This document shows positions 9,171 through 24,284 of a stretch of DNA of 24,284 nt, piece by piece. Location: the IMG/VR virus record IMGVR_UViG_3300038954_000074, positions 1 through 24,284 of that record; one strand, written 5' to 3'. The stretch is from a virus. Each line of letters opens with the position of its first letter. Position 1 is the stretch's first letter. Position numbers and translations under genes: made by a program. Below the pieces are notes generated by a model that was given only the letters and a program-made list of their open reading frames with translations, was not told the DNA's origin and did no database searches.

Positions 9171-9200
9171 ACTATACTGCATGTGTCGCGATTGTTCCAA
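9171..9200 (-). promoter_or_regulatory. sigma70-type promoter of the virion operon
   Basis: On the minus strand: -35 TTGGAA (9195-9200), 18-bp spacer, -10 TATAGT (9171-9176). It lies between the terminator at 9221-9251 and the first gene of the structural operon, so it would start a transcript near 9164 with a leader of only about ten bases. No phage-specific operator palindrome like those at the other promoters is visible here. Confidence 0.72.
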
Positions 9201-9220
9201 GTCCCTGTTTCGCGGCGGGC

Positions 9221-9251
9221 AAAAGAAAGCCCCCGGCGGGCAACCGGGGGC
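9221..9251 (-). terminator. rho-independent terminator ending the accessory operon
   Basis: On the minus strand a perfect 8-bp stem, GCCCCCGG (from 9251) and CCGGGGGC (to 9229), seven-base loop, is followed directly by TTTCTTTT (9228-9221). It lies 43 bases past the last accessory gene and 20 bases before the -35 box of the virion promoter, so it separates the two transcription units. Confidence 0.9.
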
Positions 9252-9293
9252 AAAGGAGCTGTGACGGCCATCGCCACTGCCAGAAAGGTGAGA

Positions 9294-9575
9294 CTACCTT
9301 ACAGATTCTTCGTCTGGTACGTCAATGGGCTCCAGCTCCTGCCGGATGTACGCCGCCTGCGCACGTTTCAGCGTTCGTAGCGTGGGGTTCGACTCCGTCT
9401 CCGCTTCGCTGTCAAGCTCATCGGCAATGTGGTTAATTCGAAAGATCATAGCCTTCCGGAGAAACTCGCCGTAGGTTTCGCCGGTCGCCGCCATTACTGC
9501 ACGCATTGCTTCATACGCTGCAGCATGAGCCCGAAAAGATAGGTTCTTCGTGAGATTGCGCTTATCCCGTGCCAT
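9294..9575 (-). CDS. small DNA-binding candidate, ribbon-helix-helix-like
   Basis: A 93-residue protein, MARDKRNLTKNLSFRAHAAA at the start. The order of a short basic strand (KNLSFRAH), a helix (AAAYEAMRAVMAATG) and a second helix (TYGEFLRKAMIFRINHIADEL) is the layout of a ribbon-helix-helix domain such as MobC or Arc proteins. The C-terminal 35 residues are acidic. The start at 9575 is chosen because the upstream in-frame extension is read from within the preceding gene and has no conserved look. As last gene before the terminator it could regulate phage promoters; its target is unknown. Confidence 0.68.
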   Translation of the reverse strand: MARDKRNLTKNLSFRAHAAAYEAMRAVMAATGETYGEFLRKAMIFRINHIADELDSEAETESNPTLRTLKRAQAAYIRQELEPIDVPDEESVR

Positions 9576-12958: not shown

Positions 12959-12987
12959 AATTTAGCACGTCTGCTACTTTATCGCAA
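12959..12987 (-). promoter_or_regulatory. promoter with TAGCA-N4-TGCTA operator in its spacer
   Basis: Minus strand: -35 TTGCGA (12982-12987), 17-bp spacer, -10 TAAATT (12959-12964). The spacer and the first two -10 bases carry the palindrome TAGCAGACGTGCTA (12963-12976). A 24-bp stretch (12959-12982) matches 22 of 24 bases at the promoter 17125-17148. Palindrome placement between -35 and -10 is classic for a repressor site. Expected start is near 12952, directly before the ATG. Confidence 0.75.
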
Positions 12988-15535: not shown

Positions 15536-15777
15536 ACCTGTTCTGCCTCCTGTAGCGCCAAGTCCAGTTGATCAATGGCGCTCTCCATCTTGACGCGGAG
15601 CTCCATCGCAATCTCGGCCCATCGGACTACGCGCTCTTGGAGCTCCTTCTCTCGGGCCTCGTAGTCTGCGAGCTTCACGTACAGTTCGTTCGGATCTCCC
15701 GGTAGGTTGTTCTCGCTGAGCTCGTGCATGGGCGGGTTATCGTCCACGACGGCTGCGGGGAAGTAGATGTTCGGCAT
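15532..15777 (-). CDS. small coiled-coil protein, unknown
   Basis: An 81-residue acidic protein with a disordered N-terminus (about 1-30) and a coiled-coil C-terminus (YVKLADYEAREKELQERVVR through LQEAEQV). Its ATG shares one base with the methyltransferase stop codon (TAATG), a coupling arrangement different from the usual ATGA. Function unknown. Confidence 0.68.
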   Translation of the reverse strand: MPNIYFPAAVVDDNPPMHELSENNLPGDPNELYVKLADYEAREKELQERVVRWAEIAMELRVKMESAIDQLDLALQEAEQV

Positions 15778-16700
15778 TAGCTGCTCCTCCTGTTCTCCAG
15801 TGCTGCGATTGTTGCGAATATCGGGTACGCCTGCTGGGGTACTACTGCGTTTCCGAGACTTCGCAATCGGTCCACCCGATTGGGAATCCCATGAGCCACT
15901 CGACCCACGTCGGGTTCAGTTGCCCACCATTCGGCGTGATTCCATACTTCGGATCCGTGAGTTGTGCTTTCCGGTTGCCTCCCTTCCAGACGTTCGCGTC
16001 CGGCGTCGCTACCATCTTCGCGAGGCCCTGCAGGCTCGGCCTCGCCTTCGTGTGGTCGCCCCGGTCGTACTGGTAATCGCCCCGCTTGTGGTCGATCGCG
16101 GTGGGAGTCGGGAACATTTTCACGTATTGATGCAACGACGCTCCGCTTTGATGTCCGTTCCCTAACTTGCCGCCGCGAATCCCGTGACCATTTGGGCTGA
16201 GGCCCGTGTCCGGCGTGGGCAACAATGAATACTCGGTCCCTCCTGTGCGGGGCGCCGACGCTTGCAGCCGGATAATGGAACGGGAGTGTTTCGTATCCTT
16301 CACGCTCCAGGTCAGAAAGCACAAGCTCGAACTCGGCTCCATCGTTGAGAGAAAGTAGTCCAGAAACGTTCTCTGCCACGACGTATGTCGGGGATAGCTC
16401 GCGAACAACTCGTAGCATCTGCGGCCAGAGGTAGCGGTCATCCTCCGCGCCTCCTCGCTTCCCGGCCTGAGAGAACGGCTGGCACGGGAATCCTCCGGAA
16501 ATAACGGTAGGGTAGATCCATCGTTCATCCGCTGTTACCTCCGCGATGTCGGTGAGTCGTGGTACGTCCGGCCAGTGTCGCTCGAGCACGCGCAGCGCAT
16601 ACGGGTCGCGCTCTACCTGCAGGATCGTGCGAAAACCGGCGGCCTCGGCGGCCAGGTCCAGACCGCCGATACCGGTGAAAAGCGATACGTGCGTCATCAT
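15777..16700 (-). CDS. cytosine-5 DNA methyltransferase (Dcm-type)
   Basis: A 307-residue enzyme that would transfer a methyl group from S-adenosylmethionine to cytosine C5 in DNA. Motifs: I, LFTGIGGLDLA (residues 7-17); IV, GGFPCQPFS with catalytic C73; VI, ENV (110-112); VIII, RRDRVFIVA (153-161); IX/X, GRVAHGIPNRVDRLRSLGNAVVP (about 266-288). The region between VIII and IX (target recognition, about 162-265) is polar and repetitive, probably because a second gene is read through it in another frame. The ATG at 16700 overlaps the previous stop by ATGA; an upstream open extension lacks support. Likely protects phage DNA from host restriction. No cognate restriction enzyme is present, as expected for an orphan phage enzyme. 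Confidence 0.92.
   Translation of the reverse strand: MMTHVSLFTGIGGLDLAAEAAGFRTILQVERDPYALRVLERHWPDVPRLTDIAEVTADERWIYPTVISGGFPCQPFSQAGKRGGAEDDRYLWPQMLRVVRELSPTYVVAENVSGLLSLNDGAEFELVLSDLEREGYETLPFHYPAASVGAPHRRDRVFIVAHAGHGPQPKWSRDSRRQVRERTSKRSVVASIRENVPDSHRDRPQAGRLPVRPGRPHEGEAEPAGPREDGSDAGRERLEGRQPESTTHGSEVWNHAEWWATEPDVGRVAHGIPNRVDRLRSLGNAVVPQQAYPIFATIAALENRRSS
15842..16528 (-). CDS. gene nested inside the methyltransferase, phage LPTP/VEWLMGFP family
   Basis: A 228-residue product read from the same strand as the methyltransferase but in another frame, entirely within it (methyltransferase residues 58-287). It has its own Shine-Dalgarno, GGAGGT at 16537-16542, eight bases before the ATG. The sequence is not shadow-like: CFLTWSVKDTK (70-80), SAPRTGGTEYSLLPTP (91-106), FPTPTAIDHKRG (139-150), ATPDANVWKGG (174-184) and LNPTWVEWLMGFPIGWT (204-220) are the recurring blocks of a phage protein family I know from genomes carrying Dcm genes, function unknown. 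The last block resembles the motif IX region of other phage methyltransferases. Presence of the family is firm; expression is inferred. Confidence 0.78.
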   Translation of the reverse strand: MNDGSTLPLFPEDSRASRSLRPGSEEARRMTATSGRRCYELFASYPRHTSWQRTFLDYFLSTMEPSSSLCFLTWSVKDTKHSRSIIRLQASAPRTGGTEYSLLPTPDTGLSPNGHGIRGGKLGNGHQSGASLHQYVKMFPTPTAIDHKRGDYQYDRGDHTKARPSLQGLAKMVATPDANVWKGGNRKAQLTDPKYGITPNGGQLNPTWVEWLMGFPIGWTDCEVSETQ

Positions 16701-16891
16701 CTTGCCCGTCGTGGATCCTGGCGCGCGGCGGCCGGCGTCGTCAATGCGACGATCTCGGCCGCGCACGCTTCCCATTGCTGGCGAGCCGCGTCTGTCTCCG
16801 GTCCGGATCCGTGGAACACGAGCCGAAACCATTCAGTGTGCGCGGCGCGGCCACGCTCCAAGGCCGCGCGCAGTTCGTCGCGGTTGATCAT
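16697..16891 (-). CDS. small helical protein, unknown
   Basis: A 64-residue protein, MINRDELRAALERGRAAHTE at the start, then DAARQQWEACAAEIVALT. Two helices with a basic tail. ATGA overlap with both the zinc-ribbon gene upstream and the methyltransferase downstream, so the three are co-translated. Function unknown. Confidence 0.7.
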   Translation of the reverse strand: MINRDELRAALERGRAAHTEWFRLVFHGSGPETDAARQQWEACAAEIVALTTPAAARQDPRRAR

Positions 16892-17124: not shown

Positions 17125-17153
17125 AATTTAGCACGGCTGCTATTTTATTGCAA
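17125..17153 (-). promoter_or_regulatory. promoter with TAGCA-N4-TGCTA operator in its spacer
   Basis: Minus strand: -35 TTGCAA (17148-17153), 17-bp spacer, -10 TAAATT (17125-17130). Palindrome TAGCAGCCGTGCTA (17129-17142) fills the spacer. Nearly the same sequence as at 12959-12987. It lies in the 54-base gap after the PP-loop gene and starts the operon that contains the methyltransferase. Confidence 0.76.
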
Positions 17154-17160
17154 GGCTTTT

Positions 17161-17910
17161 CTACAATCCGCAGTAGCCTTCGCATTCGTTGCCCCATAGA
17201 TCCCCCTGATCCTCGGAGAAGTCCACGTTTTCAAGCGGGCGCGCGCTCCTGTGAAGGAACGTTTCATCCTGCAATCGATCAAGCTTCCGGATCGAGCGGT
17301 CGAACGCCACCGCGTCGGCAAACTCTTCCGGCGAGTCCATTTTCAGGCGACGCCAGTAGTGGTCGTCATGGAACGGGCATCCAATGCAACTTGACTTTGG
17401 AACGTCCCATCCGCGTGCCTCAAGGTAGATCCTGCAGGCATTGCGGTCGATGCGTGCATCGATCAGCGGCCAGCGATGCGTTGTGTACTTCACAAAGCTG
17501 TCTTTCATCCGGTGGGCTTCATCGATGCTGATTCCGACCCATACCTCGGCTGGGTTCTTTGCCGACGCTCCGAGCTCGCGACACTTCTTCTGAATCGGAG
17601 CAACCTTGTATTCGCGCGTGCATTGCCGGCGCAGCATCGATACTTTGCCCGTCGTTTCGTTCTTGGTGAATAGCGGCATCGATGCGAAACGAGAGTCTGA
17701 TAGCGCGTCTGCTCGTAGGTTTCCCGCGCTGACTGTGAGAATCGGAATTTCGTTCAGCGCTTTTAGCCGATCAAGGTGGTCGTAGACTGCCTGCGGCTCC
17801 CATCCTGTATCTGCGAAGATTGCGTAGTCAGCTCTCGGAAGCTCGCCGCTGGCTGACATTAGGTACAGCGTGGTTGATTGAACGCCGGCCCCAAGACTGA
17901 TAACGGTCAC
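17161..17910 (-). CDS. PAPS-reductase-like PP-loop ATPase
   Basis: A 249-residue protein of the phage phosphoadenosine-phosphosulfate-reductase-like family (adenine nucleotide alpha hydrolase fold). The PP-loop is the variant ISLGAGVQSTTLYLM (4-18), followed by YAIFADTGWEP. Cysteines lie in QCTREYKVAPIQ, SSCIGCPFHDD and at the extreme C-terminus, NECEGYCGL; the latter two pairs could hold an Fe-S cluster. Classic members activate sulfate; the phage members have no proven substrate, and sulfur transfer to a nucleic acid base or backbone is a reasonable possibility. It is ATGA-coupled to the terminase nuclease gene, so it is made with the packaging proteins, and it sits directly before the methyltransferase operon. 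Confidence 0.85.
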   Translation of the reverse strand: MTVISLGAGVQSTTLYLMSASGELPRADYAIFADTGWEPQAVYDHLDRLKALNEIPILTVSAGNLRADALSDSRFASMPLFTKNETTGKVSMLRRQCTREYKVAPIQKKCRELGASAKNPAEVWVGISIDEAHRMKDSFVKYTTHRWPLIDARIDRNACRIYLEARGWDVPKSSCIGCPFHDDHYWRRLKMDSPEEFADAVAFDRSIRKLDRLQDETFLHRSARPLENVDFSEDQGDLWGNECEGYCGL

Positions 17911-18608
17911 TTTTGCCTCCCTTGGTCGCGATATAGTCGTAGCGGGTTATACGACGGCGCCTGTTCCTCGCCCCGGATGGGGGCCGGGACGGCGATTCCG
18001 AACGCCCGCTCGAAGTACCAGACTGCGATCGCCGCGGCGAGTACGATGTCGTCGTGCTCGCCCTCCTCGGCGCTGTACTTTTCGTTCTTCGCCTGACTGG
18101 TCGTGCGCCTGAATACGCGCAGCTCGTTCTCGAATTGCTCGGCGAGCTCGAGCGCCGGCGCGACCTGCAGCCTGCGATTCTGCGCGACTACCTGCAGGGC
18201 GCTGACGAGATCGCGTTTCGGGACGGTGTAGCCGACCTCGTTCTGCGCTACCGATGTACCGCCGGTGATCGTGACGCCGACCACGGCGATCCCGCCGCCG
18301 ATCATCTGCTGGACCACGGGGTAGCCGACGCCAGTGGCGTCCATCACGATCTGGATGTCCTGCCGGAATAGCTGCGGCATGTCCAGGATAGAGCGGATCC
18401 GCGCGATCAGTTGTCGGTACTCGATACCGAGCGGGAGACGCTCCATCAGCGGTACCTCATACGTCGAGTAGATCATGCGCCGTTCGCTCAGCTCTTCCCA
18501 CGTACCGGGAAGCGCGCGCCCCGGCTGCAGGCGTTCGCTTCTGCGCACGAGCACGATCGCGCTGTGGTCCTGGCGCGTTCCCACGTCCACGCCCATCACG
18601 TACTTCAC
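17907..18608 (-). CDS. terminase large subunit, nuclease domain as separate gene
   Basis: A 233-residue protein that begins immediately at the RNase-H-like nuclease domain: YVMGVDVGTRQDHSAIVLV (D8, D14), IVMDATGVG (D90) and GEHDDIVLAAAIA (D186, D187). These are the acidic residues that bind two metals and cut the genome at packaging ends. The start is GTG at 18608, overlapping the stop of the preceding gene as GTGA; the longer open frame upstream is a shadow of that gene. The ATPase half of the terminase is a different gene, 515 bases away (19123-19926). Confidence 0.88.
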   Translation of the reverse strand: MKYVMGVDVGTRQDHSAIVLVRRSERLQPGRALPGTWEELSERRMIYSTYEVPLMERLPLGIEYRQLIARIRSILDMPQLFRQDIQIVMDATGVGYPVVQQMIGGGIAVVGVTITGGTSVAQNEVGYTVPKRDLVSALQVVAQNRRLQVAPALELAEQFENELRVFRRTTSQAKNEKYSAEEGEHDDIVLAAAIAVWYFERAFGIAVPAPIRGEEQAPSYNPLRLYRDQGRQK

Positions 18609-19126
18609 GGCTCGGGTACCTCGTAGCCTTCCGGCCGCGACGCCGGCCTGAATCGGTGATCCATCCAGCGGAGCTCTCGGGCCCGCGCAAGTTCGTCGAT
18701 CTCCATGGGATCCGGTTGCTGCGCGCTCCCTCCCCATGCGGCATCGGCTATCGCGGTACATAGGCCGAACCATGCTTTCCACGGGATGACCGTGGGCTCT
18801 GACGTTGGCTTGTCCTCGCGCATCCACCACGGATTTGGTACGTCCTCGCGCTTCATCGTGCGCAGCTCTTTCGCATACGCTTCCGCGTTGTCCATCTGTA
18901 CGGCGATCAAGTGCGAGGCACATTCCTCGATCGTCGCGTTGCGAGCTCGTTCTACATAGTCGTCGTTCATTGGTTCCCCCCACTGTATCTTGTATGTTGT
19001 CGTCAACGGATCCGGCCATTTTGTGCCGTAGAGAAGCTCGTTCGATCGTTCTTTGCTCAGCGTCTTGGCGAGTTGGTGCACGTGCGCCTCGATCGCCCGT
19101 TTGCGCATTTCGTCTATCATGCTCAT
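18605..19126 (-). CDS. unknown gene inserted between the two terminase halves
   Basis: A 173-residue protein, MSMIDEMRKRAIEAHVHQLAKTLSKERS at the start. It has a middle segment DYVERARNATIEECASHLIAVQMDNAEAYAKELRTM, a WKAWFGLCTAIADAAWGG block and a DHRFRPASRPEGYEVPEP tail. The Ala-Glu-Cys helical segment resembles small accessory phage proteins that carry AAIEECA-type helices. No homing-endonuclease motif (HNH, LAGLIDADG, GIY-YIG) is visible, and the gene has overlapping start and stop (ATGA upstream, GTGA downstream), so it is coupled to both terminase parts. ATG 19126 chosen by that overlap; 19120 possible. Confidence 0.75.
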   Translation of the reverse strand: MSMIDEMRKRAIEAHVHQLAKTLSKERSNELLYGTKWPDPLTTTYKIQWGEPMNDDYVERARNATIEECASHLIAVQMDNAEAYAKELRTMKREDVPNPWWMREDKPTSEPTVIPWKAWFGLCTAIADAAWGGSAQQPDPMEIDELARARELRWMDHRFRPASRPEGYEVPEP

Positions 19127-19926
19127 AGCGCCTCTACCTCCGGATTCATGATCGTGTGCTCGCCCTCTTCGCCAAGCGGCTTCACGTCGTTGTCGAACAT
19201 ATCCCGGATCTGTTCGGCTGTGAAAGTCGCACCTTCGGGGTCCACGAACTCGGCCAGATACTCGCGCCTGAACTGGTAGTCCGGCGTGAGTAGCTGTTTT
19301 CGCTCGATCCATTCGCGCGGCACGCGCTCGCTCTCCCATACGGTGACGCGATAGCGGCTCCAGTACGGGTCGTCTCCGGTAGCGATCTTGTAGAAAAAGC
19401 CGGTCGTCTCGTAGGCGCTCGAGAGTAGAATGATCTGCCCGTTCGTCTGCAGGACCATCGGCTCGACCGCATAGTAGAGCTCGTCCTCGGCGAACGCGGC
19501 CTCATCGACTATGAGCATGGTCACATCCGACCACGATCGCGACGTCTTCGGGTCGCCGGGGAGCGCGACCATCCGGGCCCCGTTGAGAAACTCGATCTCG
19601 GTGCGTAGCTCCTTCTTGATCGGCAAGCCGGCGTGCTGGATATGCTGCTTCGCCTTCCGCATCAGATTGATCGATTGCTGCTGCGTGTCTGAGAAGATCA
19701 GCGCAAGACCGTTCGGTGTGGTCGCGCAGTGCTGGCTCGCCTTCAACGATACGGTGAAGGATTTGCCGATCTGCCGGCTGCAGGTGATACAGATTCGCCG
19801 CTCTGAGTCTCTGAGTATGTCCGCCTGCCATCCTTCCGGCTCGACGCCCATGCGCTCGCGCACGAACGCAACGGGGTCGAGATTGATCCGGATGGATTCA
19901 AGCACTCTCGCGGCGACGGAAGACAC
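19123..19926 (-). CDS. terminase large subunit, ATPase domain as separate gene
   Basis: A 267-residue DNA-packaging motor protein. Walker A CSRQIGKS (49-56), Walker B TMLIVDEAAF (136-145, D141/E142) and coupling motif IILLSSAYE (165-173) are present. The sequence ends at FRREYLAEFVDPEGATFTAEQI plus about 20 residues, the point where the linker to the nuclease domain normally begins, so the nuclease is absent. It begins with GTG at 19926, GGAGGAG seven bases upstream, and overlaps the small subunit gene by 29 bases. Function requires the nuclease gene at 17907-18608. Confidence 0.9.
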   Translation of the reverse strand: MSSVAARVLESIRINLDPVAFVRERMGVEPEGWQADILRDSERRICITCSRQIGKSFTVSLKASQHCATTPNGLALIFSDTQQQSINLMRKAKQHIQHAGLPIKKELRTEIEFLNGARMVALPGDPKTSRSWSDVTMLIVDEAAFAEDELYYAVEPMVLQTNGQIILLSSAYETTGFFYKIATGDDPYWSRYRVTVWESERVPREWIERKQLLTPDYQFRREYLAEFVDPEGATFTAEQIRDMFDNDVKPLGEEGEHTIMNPEVEAL

Positions 19927-20665: not shown

Positions 20666-20837
20666 CGAATGCCCTCGTCGGTTTCGCGTTCCGCCAGTAG
20701 TCTTTCAGGCTTTCAATGTCGCCCCGGATACGATCACCTTCCGGGCCGGTGAGTTCCTCGTGCGATACGTGAATCTCGAACACGTAGACGAGCTCGCTGT
20801 TCACGAAATCTTTGCGCTGGCTGACTGTGTGTTTCAT
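20646..20837 (-). CDS. small protein upstream of terminase, unknown
   Basis: A 63-residue protein, MKHTVSQRKDFVNSELVYVF at the start, then a helix LTGPEGDRIRGDIESLKDYW. The ATG at 20837 overlaps the preceding stop as ATGA; an in-frame ATG six codons earlier (20855) is possible but has poorer Shine-Dalgarno. Function unknown. Confidence 0.68.
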   Translation of the reverse strand: MKHTVSQRKDFVNSELVYVFEIHVSHEELTGPEGDRIRGDIESLKDYWRNAKPTRAFDGHGAK

Positions 20838-21088
20838 AGACTCCAGGGCCTCCATCGCCTGATCGAATCGACTACGCTCGGGCGAACCTTCGCGTCGATC
20901 TTCAATCCCGTGTCACGGAAAACGTACCACGGCTCGCCGTGGCGTGGCTTGATGATGTCAACCTTCACGTCCACGCCGTTCATCCGTAGCGTCGTCTGCG
21001 CCACCGCGCGCTCGTACTTATTGCCGGGTGCGGTGGCTGCCTCCTCCCACGACGAGTACGTTCGCATGACTTTTCGCGGGTCACTCAT
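20834..21088 (-). CDS. small early protein, unknown
   Basis: An 84-residue protein, MSDPRKVMRTYSSWEEAATA at the start, then beta-like LRMNGVDVKVDIIKPRHGEPWYVFRD. GAGGAGG is well placed before the ATG, and the gene overlaps its upstream neighbour by eight bases. Longer open frame upstream is not supported. Unknown family. Confidence 0.7.
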   Translation of the reverse strand: MSDPRKVMRTYSSWEEAATAPGNKYERAVAQTTLRMNGVDVKVDIIKPRHGEPWYVFRDTGLKIDAKVRPSVVDSIRRWRPWSL

Positions 21089-21296
21089 TGTCGCGTACCT
21101 CCTCATATGTCGCCTCGAAGATTCCCGGCTTGCGCGGCATCTTCGCCTTTGCCGCCTCTTCGGCCTGACGGGCAAGGCGGATCCGGTCCGGATGCTCGGT
21201 GATCCGCACGTGAAACGGTATGTGGGTCCAGTCTCCGGTATCACGGGTTACCCGTCCGGTTCGATTGTACTGTTCGTAGTGGTCGACCATTCTCAT
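21081..21296 (-). CDS. small early protein, unknown
   Basis: A 71-residue protein, MRMVDHYEQYNRTGRVTRDT at the start, with DHPDR-like helix PDRIRLARQAEEAAKAKMPRK. ATGA overlap with the replication-protein candidate. Unknown family. Confidence 0.68.
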   Translation of the reverse strand: MRMVDHYEQYNRTGRVTRDTGDWTHIPFHVRITEHPDRIRLARQAEEAAKAKMPRKPGIFEATYEEVRDNE

Positions 21297-21856
21297 CCCT
21301 CGCCACCCTCGGCCTTTTTCCAGGGCAGACTGGTCCGCAAGTGCTCGGCCAGGTCGATCGGTTCGCCGCGCCCCGGATACCGTATCGATACCGTATCCGT
21401 TTCGTTCGGGTTTGTTTGTATGTCTGTCTGTCTGTGCGATACCCTATCGATACCGTATCGATACCGTATCGATTCCAGCGCCGGCGGCAGTTTGTAGCCG
21501 ATCGAAAGCGCCCACGCCATGACGTCCTCCGGGACCATTTCGTAGAGCTCGCGCGCGTGCGTGATCATCTGCGGTGACTGCGGCATGTGCTGCACCGCCT
21601 GGGTGACGCAGGCCCATCCGTTCAGCCATCCGGCCATCCGATCGCGCTCGAGCCTGTTGAGCCAGCGCTGTAACGTCTCCCGATCAGTGCCGACGTTGCG
21701 CTGTATCTGGCCAAGCGATACGCGGTAGAGCCCCTCCATGTTCGACCGCTCCCCGGCGATCAGATACAGGTAGACCATCTTGCCGGTGGTATCGAGCTCC
21801 TCCTCGACATAGGCGCTGTGCCAGAACGCCCGGTGTAATTGCCTGTACTCGCTCAC
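21293..21856 (-). CDS. replication initiation protein candidate, gene contains iteron-like repeats
   Basis: A 187-residue protein. Residues about 1-90 (WHSAYVEEELDTTGKMVYLYL, NMEGLYRVSLGQIQRNVGTD, LQRWLNRLERDRMAGWLNGW) are a winged-helix domain of the type found in phage replication organisers. The C-terminal part (about 115-170), QTDIQTNPNETDTVSIRYPG, is encoded by repeat DNA (five 11-bp units). A replication initiator whose gene holds its own binding sites is the lambda O arrangement. The start is GTG at 21856 with AGGAGG eight bases away; the longer frame to 21970 would run over the regulatory palindrome and the end of the preceding gene. Initiator role is inferred. Confidence 0.72.
   Translation of the reverse strand: MSEYRQLHRAFWHSAYVEEELDTTGKMVYLYLIAGERSNMEGLYRVSLGQIQRNVGTDRETLQRWLNRLERDRMAGWLNGWACVTQAVQHMPQSPQMITHARELYEMVPEDVMAWALSIGYKLPPALESIRYRYGIDRVSHRQTDIQTNPNETDTVSIRYPGRGEPIDLAEHLRTSLPWKKAEGGEG
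21375..21469 (-). repeat. five 11-bp iterons, candidate replication origin
   Basis: Written on the plus strand the unit is CGATACCGTAT. Units: 21375-21385 (first base G), 21386-21396, then a 40-base gap, 21437-21447 (one change, CCC), 21448-21458 and 21459-21469. Units within each group are contiguous, one helical turn apart. The gap holds GTTTGTTTG and a TCTG microsatellite (21422-21434), an AT/GT-rich stretch that could unwind. Such clustered direct repeats inside a replication gene are the mark of an iteron origin. Confidence 0.72.
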
Positions 21857-21914
21857 GGTGTTTCCCTCCTGTTCCCCTTCCTGACAGTAGGTGACCGCTT
21901 CTGTTTTTCTCTGA

Positions 21915-21931
21915 GAGCCTACAAACGTAGG
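21915..21931. promoter_or_regulatory. palindromic operator copy upstream of the replication gene
   Basis: The 17-mer GAGCCTACAAACGTAGG is identical (complement strand) to part of the operator at 23584-23607. Core palindrome CCTAC-AAAC-GTAGG occupies 21918-21931. It lies in the gap between the ribbon-helix-helix gene and the replication-protein start. No convincing -35/-10 pair surrounds it, so a roadblock or autoregulatory site is possible. Confidence 0.7.
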
Positions 21932-21938
21932 GTACACG

Positions 21939-22136
21939 CTATTTCCCCTGCCCTTCGGGTACTTCGACACGGTGCAATCGCTCCCACGCCTTTCTCACGG
22001 CGCTGGTGGCATATTTGGCCATGTGACTGTAGACCGCGTTCTTCACGTATTCGTTGCGCGTGAGCCCCTTGTACTGCGCATCCCGATCGATCAGTGCGGC
22101 GGCCTCCTCGGGTAGTCTGATCTCGATTCTCGTCAT
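21939..22136 (-). CDS. ribbon-helix-helix transcriptional regulator
   Basis: A 65-residue protein, MTRIEIRLPEEAAALIDRDA then YKGLTRNEYVKNAVYSHMAK. The strand (TRIEIRLP), helix 1 (EEAAALIDRDAQYKG) and helix 2 (TRNEYVKNAVYSHM) give a typical Arc/CopG ribbon-helix-helix, which binds palindromic DNA as paired dimers. The gene ends only seven bases before the operator copy at 21915-21931, and the same sequence is in the early promoter region, which makes this protein the best candidate to bind it. ATGA overlap with the gene upstream. Confidence 0.84.
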   Translation of the reverse strand: MTRIEIRLPEEAAALIDRDAQYKGLTRNEYVKNAVYSHMAKYATSAVRKAWERLHRVEVPEGQGK

Positions 22137-22633
22137 TGGTCGCTTTCTCCTTCCTGCAGATTTGGCGCCCCTCGCAAGCCGTTGACCATTTCTTGTTCAT
22201 TCCACGGGATTTGGACCATACTGATCAGCTCCAGTGCTTCGGCCGCGTTTCCATCGGCAATGAGCGCCTGCGCCGTCATGATCTCGTCTGCAAGCTGCAG
22301 CACGCGCCGGCGCGCGTCCAGGTATGCCGGGAGCCATCGCCGTTCGTCGTCCGGGTGCTCGGGCCGGCCGACGTCGTTGATCCATTCCTGCTCGAGCTCG
22401 AGCTCGCGGATCCGGGCATGCGCGCGCTGTAGTTCGCGCGGAATGTCGGCGATGGCGCGCATATAAGGAACGTCCGCGTCGAAGATTGGTTCGGCAGACC
22501 ATGTGACGTCCATGGAGTCGGGCGGTTCCTCGAGCTCGTCCAGAGGAATGTTTTCCTCCATGTCATCATCGTCGATTCTCGTGGTAGGCTGGTCGCCGTA
22601 CCATTGCAGATAGATCACTTGTGGTGCGTGCAT
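22133..22633 (-). CDS. accessory early protein with coiled coil, unknown
   Basis: A 166-residue acidic protein starting MHAPQVIYLQWYGDQPTTRI, followed by an acidic stretch (DDDDMEENIPLDELEEPPDS) and a long helical region (about 62-100, HARIRELELEQEWINDVG). The IYLQ-YGD start with a WSAEPIFDADVPYMRA element is typical of small early phage proteins found by nuclease or replication genes; role unknown. AGGAGGAAAC precedes the ATG. It overlaps the RusA gene by 19 bases. Confidence 0.74.
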   Translation of the reverse strand: MHAPQVIYLQWYGDQPTTRIDDDDMEENIPLDELEEPPDSMDVTWSAEPIFDADVPYMRAIADIPRELQRAHARIRELELEQEWINDVGRPEHPDDERRWLPAYLDARRRVLQLADEIMTAQALIADGNAAEALELISMVQIPWNEQEMVNGLRGAPNLQEGESDQ

Positions 22634-23094
22634 GTTTCCTCCTGTAGCTCCTCGATTACGATGCCCACGCCTTCGGGCCAGTCCGTCGTCGCGTACCATT
22701 TACTCACGCGGAGATCGAATACCTGGCAATCGTCGCGGTAGACTCCAATGTCAGTTGCCACGTCCATGACCGCCTTTGCGAGATTGTCCACGTCCATGCG
22801 GTTCGGCATGGGAAGAGGCTCATCGCTTGCTTTGGCGAGTCGTTTCGGCCGTTTGAAGAAGAAGTCGAGCCGGATGCGGATTGGACCGGATGCCGGCTCG
22901 CGTTTGCCGCGGGGGCGCATGGCGATCGCGAGAATGTGTTTCCACGGTGTGACGCTCGACGGATTGATCGTGCGGCTGCGCCCGCGCGCGTCCGTATAGG
23001 TCCGTGGTCGCGGCATTGGTTTCGGCCGGCCTTCGGCGAACACGTCGACGAGCGAGGACCACGGTCGGGGGTGATTCGTTCCGAGCCAGTTCAT
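22615..23094 (-). CDS. RusA-type Holliday junction resolvase
   Basis: A 159-residue endonuclease of the RusA family, which cuts four-way DNA junctions during recombination or resolves branched DNA before packaging. The signature appears as PMPRPRTYTDARG near residue 26, then NRMDVDNLAKAVMD (D101, D103) and GVYRDDCQVFDL (D122): the three catalytic Asp residues. The ATG at 23094 overlaps the stop of the upstream gene as ATGA. Longer open frame upstream is unsupported. Confidence 0.9.
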   Translation of the reverse strand: MNWLGTNHPRPWSSLVDVFAEGRPKPMPRPRTYTDARGRSRTINPSSVTPWKHILAIAMRPRGKREPASGPIRIRLDFFFKRPKRLAKASDEPLPMPNRMDVDNLAKAVMDVATDIGVYRDDCQVFDLRVSKWYATTDWPEGVGIVIEELQEETCTHHK

Positions 23095-23345
23095 CCGCTG
23101 CGCCCCTTTTTCCAACCCGTCGCTGGTGTGACGTACTTTGACTTTTCGACGTTCTTTGCTGCGCCTCGTGCATACTCGAAGTGCTCGAGACAAAGCGCCT
23201 TCGTCGGCCGTGAAACATAGCCGTAGGCCGGCTTGCCGCATGCCCGCATGCCGTTGATCTCCTTGTCGTATTCCTCGAATGTGCACGTGAAGAACTCGGC
23301 AAACGCCTTTTCGGCGTTCTCGGTCATGGGTTCAGCGAATAGCAT
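23091..23345 (-). CDS. first early-operon gene, small Cys/His protein
   Basis: An 84-residue protein, MLFAEPMTENAEKAFAEFFT at the start. The middle, RACGKPAYGYVSRPTKALCLEHFEYA (C36, C52, H55), resembles the small CGxPA...LCxxH zinc-binding motif common in phage proteins. It is the first gene after the early regulatory region, with AGGAGG about ten bases before the ATG, so it should be the earliest product of the leftward promoter. Function unknown. Confidence 0.73.
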   Translation of the reverse strand: MLFAEPMTENAEKAFAEFFTCTFEEYDKEINGMRACGKPAYGYVSRPTKALCLEHFEYARGAAKNVEKSKYVTPATGWKKGRSG

Positions 23346-23413
23346 ATCTGGTGCCCTCCTGGTCAGTGTTGACGATAGGGGCTCTGCATGTAGTGCGGCG
23401 ATGCGAATCGGGC

Positions 23414-23442
23414 TTGCGGTTGTCGGCGGGATTGTGTATTCT
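23414..23442 (+). promoter_or_regulatory. plus-strand promoter opposing the early transcript
   Basis: -35 TTGCGG (23414-23419), 17-bp spacer, -10 TATTCT (23437-23442). It points away from all protein genes, toward the plus-strand terminator at 23490-23522. Match to consensus is moderate, but the spacing is ideal and the terminator downstream gives it meaning. Confidence 0.5.
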
Positions 23443-23448
23443 ACGCTC

Positions 23449-23522
23449 GATCATAGCCGTACTTCATGATCAGTTTCCCCCATCCCTCTGCCCGGCGCCC
23501 TCCACGCCGGGCTTTCTTTTCT
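23449..23522 (+). ncRNA. candidate antisense small RNA over the early leader
   Basis: Predicted from the promoter at 23414-23442 and the terminator at 23490-23522: about 74 nt. It would contain a GATCAT / ATGATC hairpin (23449-23471), a C-rich single-stranded segment TTTCCCCCATCCCTCT and the terminator stem. It is complementary to the 5' leader of the leftward early transcript. No coding frame with a Shine-Dalgarno was found. Comparable phage RNAs are OOP of lambda and Sar of P22. Expression is unproven. Confidence 0.5.
23490..23522 (+). terminator. rho-independent terminator on the plus strand
   Basis: Perfect stem GCCCGGCG (23490-23497) / CGCCGGGC (23505-23512), seven-base loop, followed by TTTCTTTTCT. 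A U-tract is present only for plus-strand transcription, although all protein genes here are on the minus strand, which implies a plus-strand transcript. Confidence 0.88.
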
Positions 23523-23529
23523 CGAGTCC

Positions 23530-23578
23530 GTAGCATCCCTTGCTACTCCATATCCGCCTCCTCCCGTAGGCTTCTACG
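23530..23578. promoter_or_regulatory. two palindromes in the early leader
   Basis: GTAGCA-TCCCT-TGCTAC (23530-23546), of the same class as the palindrome over the -10 box, and CGTAG-GCTT-CTACG (23565-23578), which shares the GCCTACG half-site with the operator next to it. Both lie downstream of the leftward start point, suitable for additional repressor binding. Confidence 0.6.
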
Positions 23579-23583
23579 TTAAT

Positions 23584-23607
23584 TCGAGCCTACGTTTGTA
23601 GGCTCGA
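23584..23607. promoter_or_regulatory. main early operator, 24-bp perfect palindrome
   Basis: Arms TCGAGCCTAC and GTAGGCTCGA, ten bases each, separated by GTTT, placed directly downstream of the -10 box of the leftward early promoter, where bound protein would block transcription. A 17-bp part recurs at 21915-21931, next to the ribbon-helix-helix regulator gene. Confidence 0.78.
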
Positions 23608-23636
23608 TTGTAGCGGGGATGCTACTTTACCGTCAA
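23607..23636 (-). promoter_or_regulatory. leftward early promoter
   Basis: Minus strand: -35 TTGACG (23631-23636), 18-bp spacer, -10 TACAAT (23607-23612). The best match to sigma70 consensus in the window. The spacer shares TAAAGTAGCA with the promoters at 12959 and 17125, and a palindrome GTAGC-GGGGAT-GCTAC (23610-23625) covers the -10 box. The start is expected near 23600, inside the operator, leaving a leader of about 255 bases before the first gene. Confidence 0.82.
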
Positions 23637-23644
23637 GCTCGTCC

Positions 23645-23848
23645 TTACGACGAGCCGCCGGTTTGGTTGCTCGGCTTCTTCGGTGGTATCCATTCGATCC
23701 CCGCCCAGGTGTCGAGCACGATCACGATGATCACCGTGACCGCATCCCACCATTCCAGCGGCCATCCGTAGATCACCGCCAGACCGAGAATCGCGGACGC
23801 CACGAGATTCAGCACGAGCACGATCAGTCGCTTGATCTGATCTGACAT
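23645..23848 (-). CDS. small two-segment membrane protein, holin candidate
   Basis: A 67-residue protein, MSDQIKRLIVLVLNLVASAI at the start, with hydrophobic segments about 8-27 and 32-52 (LEWWDAVTVIIVIVLDTWAG) and a polar PPKKPSNQTGGSS tail. Size and two hydrophobic stretches fit a small holin, or an accessory to one. The ATG at 23848 is chosen over a TTG ten codons upstream because GAGGAGG lies right before it. It is the last gene before the early regulatory region. Confidence 0.7.
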   Translation of the reverse strand: MSDQIKRLIVLVLNLVASAILGLAVIYGWPLEWWDAVTVIIVIVLDTWAGIEWIPPKKPSNQTGGSS

Positions 23849-23890
23849 ACCGCCTCCTCGTTGCGTTGCGGCCTTCAAGGCTACCGCTGC

Positions 23891-24284
23891 CTATTCCTCG
23901 TCGCGGCTGCGCCGCGCTGCATCCTCGAATCGGGATTGAATCTGGCGCTGGTCGCGCTCGCCCTGGGATCCTCCGTAGAGGAAATCGACGATTGTGTTCA
24001 CCTTCGTGCTCATCGCGGTGAATACGCTCGTGATCAGCACGATCGCCCATTGCGGCAAGTCCATCGCCACCACGGCGGCCGGGAATAACGAGAGCACGAG
24101 CCATAGCATGATCCCGCTGATCGCGAGATACCCGGCAAGGAAAACGACCGCAAACGCCTTCTGCAGTCCTGAATCCTTTTCGTACATGGCTCGGGCGCTT
24201 GCGCGGTCTTCGAGATACGCCTGCTCGAGATCCATCCGGAACTTCTGCAGCTCCAGGTTCACGCGGCGCAACGCGAGCTCGGCC
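23891..24284 (-). CDS. membrane protein with charged ends, holin-like (5' end outside window)
   Basis: The open frame enters from the right edge, so the true start is outside; a TTG at 24271 is the first internal candidate but continuation AELALRRVN looks like coding sequence. It has an N-terminal charged helix (LEQAYLEDRASARAMYEKDS), two hydrophobic segments (about KAFAVVFLAGYLAISGIMLWLVLSLF and WAIVLITSVFTAMS) and then VNTIVDFLYGGSQGERDQRQ. The last part resembles the cytoplasmic segment of phage holin-like proteins with a VDFxxGSS-type turn. Pairing with the small membrane gene next door suggests a lysis module. Confidence 0.68.
   Translation of the reverse strand, partial: AELALRRVNLELQKFRMDLEQAYLEDRASARAMYEKDSGLQKAFAVVFLAGYLAISGIMLWLVLSLFPAAVVAMDLPQWAIVLITSVFTAMSTKVNTIVDFLYGGSQGERDQRQIQSRFEDAARRSRDEE

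Follow-up and report, generated by a model that had tools for sequence, protein, structure and literature searches.

The window analysed here, the whole of IMG/VR record IMGVR_UViG_3300038954_000074, is a genome fragment of 24,284 bases with its predicted genes on the minus strand. The source is an unclassified, podovirus-like tailed phage and an orphan, for which the collections searched yielded no near relative. Podoviruses related to epsilon15/phiV10, BPP-1 and HTVC010P have a similar capsid and portal (25%–37% identity), and the terminase is similar to those of Meiothermus, Thermus and Halogranum viruses. No match was returned when the whole window was compared with phages by megablast, the portal alone and the terminase alone as queries retrieved no near relative, the capsid alone found none in genomes, and the relatives among the matches listed in capsid- and terminase-alignment scans were all distant (37% identity or less). 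The large terminase (17907-19926) appears split into an ATPase part (19123-19926) and a nuclease part ending at 17907, with a frame at 18605-19126 standing between the two. Two overlapping minus-strand frames (15777-16832 and 15842-16528) both match phage DNA methyltransferase families (phrog_363, 1e-79; phrog_1008, 3e-29), and in Paenibacillus phages the same match falls on two features annotated as methyltransferases.

The early operon and the inverted repeats associated with it comprise the following features, in the order of transcription:

23607..23636, minus strand: early promoter, TTGACG-18-TACAAT
23610..23625, minus strand: dyad A, GTAGCATCCCCGCTAC, in the promoter spacer, of the TAGCA-N4-YGCTA class
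23584..23607, minus strand: dyad B, TCGAGCCTAC-AAAC-GTAGGCTCGA, overlapping the end of the early -10 and the predicted start site
23565..23578, no strand assigned: dyad C, CGTAG-N4-CTACG, downstream of the start
23530..23546, no strand assigned: dyad D, GTAGC-N7-GCTAC (TAGCA-N5-TGCTA), in the early leader
22133..23345, minus strand: early operon genes ahead of the ribbon-helix-helix (RHH) gene, from profiles, namely the next three
23091-23345, minus strand: unknown gene
22615-23094, minus strand: RusA-like resolvase
22133-22633, minus strand: unknown gene
21939..22136, minus strand: 65-aa RHH-like protein, candidate repressor, from profiles and model
21915..21931, plus strand: site 2, GAGCCTACAAACGTAGG, with dyad CCTAC-N4-GTAGG, in the gap between the RHH and replication genes
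21293..21856, minus strand: putative replication initiator, GTG start with AGGAGG

The early promoter is the sole sigma-70 match in 20800-24284 and the second best of the whole minus strand by weight matrix (score 14.1). Dyad B overlaps the last base of its -10 element and covers the predicted start near 23600, in agreement with the first-pass annotation, which had placed a palindrome at the early promoter start site. The sequence described there as a 24-bp palindrome (23584-23607, TCGAGCCTACGTTTGTAGGCTCGA) does have inverted symmetry, with perfect inverted 10-bp arms, but it is a dyad and not a literal palindrome, because the arms invert around a 4-nt spacer. The 17-bp sequence that it was said to share with 21915-21931 is indeed common to both places, the second copy being inverted: GAGCCTACAAACGTAGG reads on the plus strand at 21915-21931 and as its reverse complement at 23589-23605. 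Of all inverted repeats linking separate places in the window, this core is the longest; the 17-mer has no further copies there, and the arms of site 2 are shorter than those of dyad B. The identity of the 17-mers alone is weak evidence, since repeats of 17 or more bp arose somewhere in the window in 19 of 200 dinucleotide shuffles, about 10%. The dyad CCTAC-N4-GTAGG was found twice, with 0.02 expected per window and none of 100 shuffles containing two, and the presence of the two dyads is not due to chance. The palindrome is probably a repressor binding site.

Tetrads of CTAC/GTAG, unmentioned in the first-pass annotation, occur eight times in 97 bp around the early promoter and are arranged as inverted pairs at distances of 8, 12 and 13 bp; beyond dyad B, six more copies lie in 23521-23640 (P ~2e-4, the word having been pre-specified from B). 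The cluster was dropped as stand-alone evidence, as it is not exceptional once all 4-mers are compared. In the early leader, a two-codon frame, ATG GAG TAG, closely follows a strong AGGAGG (23545-23566, minus strand), and a possible short frame of ~31 codons comes directly after it; the arrangement resembles a minigene or leader peptide. At 23490-23512 on the plus strand, a good intrinsic terminator (8 G-C pairs, TTTCTTTT) is oriented opposite to the early operon, and no gene is evident ahead of it on the plus strand.

The 65-residue protein of 21939-22136, which begins MTRIEIRLPEEAAALIDRD, falls within the RHH family by profile in both PHROGs (phrog_13890, 1.3e-8; Arc-like repressor phrog_582, 0.013) and Pfam, where the scores are marginal (TacA1, 23.6 bits against a cut-off of 21; RHH_1, 18.7, under the cut-off of 20.5). 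Modelled from its sequence alone (pLDDT 82), the protein has helices at 10-22 and 27-42 (~90), and the model can be aligned with Reg576, CopG and Arc (Z 4.7–5.2) and also with AmrZ; the model shows no strand, which is expected only in the dimer, and Foldseek gave E-values of at best 0.41. The assignment of the adjacent protein as RHH-like in the first-pass annotation is thus supported by PHROGs, Pfam and model alignment, and the protein is a plausible early repressor and a candidate owner of the operators. A second RHH candidate (9294-9575), with one weak Arc-like match (0.035), was dropped because its model is all helical, itself weak evidence from a single sequence. The 65-aa protein gave only matches with E of 5 or more in tblastn against phages and plasmids and, besides those, MobC-like matches at E 0.07 or more; scans of IMG/VR and GTDB genomes revealed no relative. 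Among the matches listed, the capsid and terminase relatives had no homologues of the RHH or replication genes, and one terminase relative had a weak RusA-like match. Two operator patterns were scanned against IMG/VR: GCTACNATN4CCTACN4GTAGG occurred in eight contigs that have one similar sequence in common, unrelated to this locus, and GAGCCTACN4GTAGGCTC in eight contigs, in terminator-like or otherwise unrelated contexts. Operator copies in relatives lacking the regulator had been named beforehand as evidence against a role of the RHH protein; the scans found no such case, as the matched contigs are unrelated to this locus.

Site 2 lies 7 bp past the stop codon of the RHH-like gene, in an 82-nt gap before the putative replication gene, and this is the sole gap among the junctions between 23345 and 19123, the remainder of which overlap by 4–29 nt. 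The N-terminal domain of the replication gene product resembles a DnaD-like helicase loader/replisome organizer (phrog_1701, 4.4e-10; phrog_6251, 1.8e-9). No sigma-70-like promoter was found on the coding strand of the gap, where the best score was 4.1 versus 14.1 for the early promoter, so the earlier suggestion that site 2 regulates the replication gene finds no support in the form of promoter repression and is the weakest part of that reading. As no promoter is visible there, we infer, rather than observe, a role of site 2 as a roadblock or partner site. Inside the 3′ end of the replication gene (21376-21481), tandem 11-bp palindromes, GATACCGTATC, form two clusters around a T-rich stretch and are the most clustered words of the window; the stretch resembles an origin embedded in the initiator gene, in the way that the origin of phage lambda lies inside O.

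Dyad A is not a variant of dyad B, and its half-sites point the opposite way. It belongs to a second class, TAGCA-N4-YGCTA, also found at two other minus-strand promoters:

17125..17153, minus strand: promoter TTGCAA-17-TAAATT with dyad TAGCAGCCGTGCTA (17129-17142)
12959..12987, minus strand: promoter TTGCGA-17-TAAATT with dyad TAGCAGACGTGCTA (12963-12976)

The class sequences are TTGCAATAAAATAGCAGCCGTGCTAAATT at 17153 and TTGCGATAAAGTAGCAGACGTGCTAAATT at 12987, and both occupy gaps immediately ahead of genes (54 nt and 45 nt). All three promoters (12959-12987, 17125-17153 and 23607-23636) have TAAARTAGCA-N4-YGCTAMAWT in common. The dyad followed by MAWT has three copies, all of them overlapping a minus-strand -10 (promoters 23636, 17153 and 12987), and occurred in none of 100 shuffles, a zero that is somewhat flattering because the pattern was defined after seeing the sites; the narrower dyad TAGCA-N4-TGCTA alone was found twice versus 0.01 expected. 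This class, which the first-pass annotation had missed, points more clearly to a phage regulon, with three promoters of one genome as its candidate members. It is probably read by a second regulator and less likely by the same regulator as dyad B. At 9171-9260 on the minus strand, a terminator-like GC stem with a TTTCTTTT tail is followed by a promoter, TTGGAA-18-TATAGT, before the head genes; it is likely a late promoter and is associated with neither dyad class.

Returning to the CCTAC-N4-GTAGG sites, we consider the chances evenly balanced that they are operators for phage-encoded repression of the early operon, with RHH feedback at dyad B and a roadblock or partner role for site 2. The early operon, transcribed from its strong sigma-70-like promoter, would make the RHH product, dimers of which would bind CCTAC-N4-GTAGG at dyad B, and its accumulation would shut the early promoter in a negative feedback of the CopG/Arc/Cro kind; protein bound at site 2 might halt elongation ahead of the replication gene, as a roadblock, or take part as a partner in cooperative binding over a distance. 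The feedback reading rests on the two exact dyads, on the position of B over the -10 end and start, and on that of site 2 in the sole operon gap, and it is from the sequence that we infer binding of the RHH protein to both. The proposal of the first-pass annotation, one protein acting at two sites, appears reasonable; it would be ordinary in kind, with a new orphan member.

The closest known arrangement is copG–repB of pMV158, in which the RHH protein CopG, encoded immediately before repB, represses the shared copG–repB transcript at its promoter, its dimers binding cooperatively and blocking RNA polymerase (PMC5703833). Similarly, the RHH gene (21939-22136) directly precedes a gene with an initiator-like N-terminus (21293-21856) in one predicted operon. 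Dyads lie over the early promoter of that operon, whose transcript would include both genes, and nothing promoter-like lies directly before either gene. Unlike in pMV158, the RHH gene is internal to a phage early operon with its promoter 1.5 kb upstream, and the second site, where binding is predicted, lies between the RHH and replication genes. For an operator inside an operon, the model is offered by the stoperators of cluster A mycobacteriophages, sites of the L5 repressor found at promoters and in short intergenic gaps, where they stop elongation (PMC9283540). In L5, a two-domain monomer binds asymmetric 13-mers, of which a genome has more than twenty, whereas the window has, in place of many transcription-oriented sites, two symmetric ones in 24 kb, in opposite orientation, and an RHH candidate. 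The operators of RHH antitoxins and omega are palindromes or repeats over promoters (PMC4803016); the Omega repressor of pSM19035 likewise places RHH dimers on arrays of short repeated elements over promoters (PMC4803016), but reads 7-bp heptads, in contrast to the inverted tetrad pairs of the window, with their distances of 8, 12 and 13 bp. The searches yielded no usable literature on phage RHH repressors with early promoters, on a GTAGGC operator or on P22 Arc. The candidate resembles Arc in being a small phage RHH protein, and its model aligns to Arc chains at Z 4.7 and 3.0 Å over 42–44 residues, but sequence identity is ~20%. The Arc operator differs from the present dyads in half-site and spacing.

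A serious rival, to which we nevertheless give rather less than even credence, is that the dyads are operators of another regulator, CI/Cro-like or of another helix-turn-helix (HTH) type, encoded in a part of the genome that the record lacks, and that the RHH protein does something else, such as partition, regulation of other sites or service as an orphan antitoxin. The genome is incomplete, the record being a fragment, and its remainder may encode a conventional HTH repressor; HTH dimers, too, would suit perfect inverted repeats whose half-sites are 8–9 bp apart, a spacer dyad at three promoters resembles a classical phage operator set, and in NCBIfam the RHH protein comes closest to VapB/BrnA/RelB antitoxins, all under cut-off. 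However, the window proteins tested included no such HTH repressor, PHROGs and Pfam recognised no toxin-like gene beside the RHH gene, and this gene adjoins site 2 inside the very operon that B would control.

It is improbable that the 17-bp identity reflects chance or a recent duplication, functionless at site 2, such that only the early-promoter dyads matter: repeats of this length do arise in shuffled windows, and site 2 has the shorter arms and no promoter, but both copies are noncoding dyads and site 2 occupies the only gap of the operon. About as improbable is an action of dyad B in RNA, through a hairpin formed on read-through from upstream genes that affects processing or termination, for although 23565-23607 folds as RNA at -22.2 kcal/mol (z -7.6), the early transcript could not form the hairpin because its predicted start lies inside the dyad, no U-run follows dyad B, the scan for intrinsic terminators returned neither dyad, and the RNA of site 2 is no more stably folded than its shuffles (z -0.08), so that it is not as a hairpin that the common sequence is kept.

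Whether the two classes form one scheme, with CCTAC-N4-GTAGG serving the RHH protein in early shut-off and as a roadblock before the replication gene, TAGCA-N4-YGCTA serving three promoters and both converging on the early promoter, is a speculative proposition that we consider unlikely to hold in full. The operator sequences attributed to the RHH protein are short and exact, and binding is directly testable on two oligonucleotides. If RHH-mediated feedback on the early operon is true, the pairing of a CopG-like RHH repressor with a replication gene would extend to a podovirus that stands without a near relative in the collections searched.
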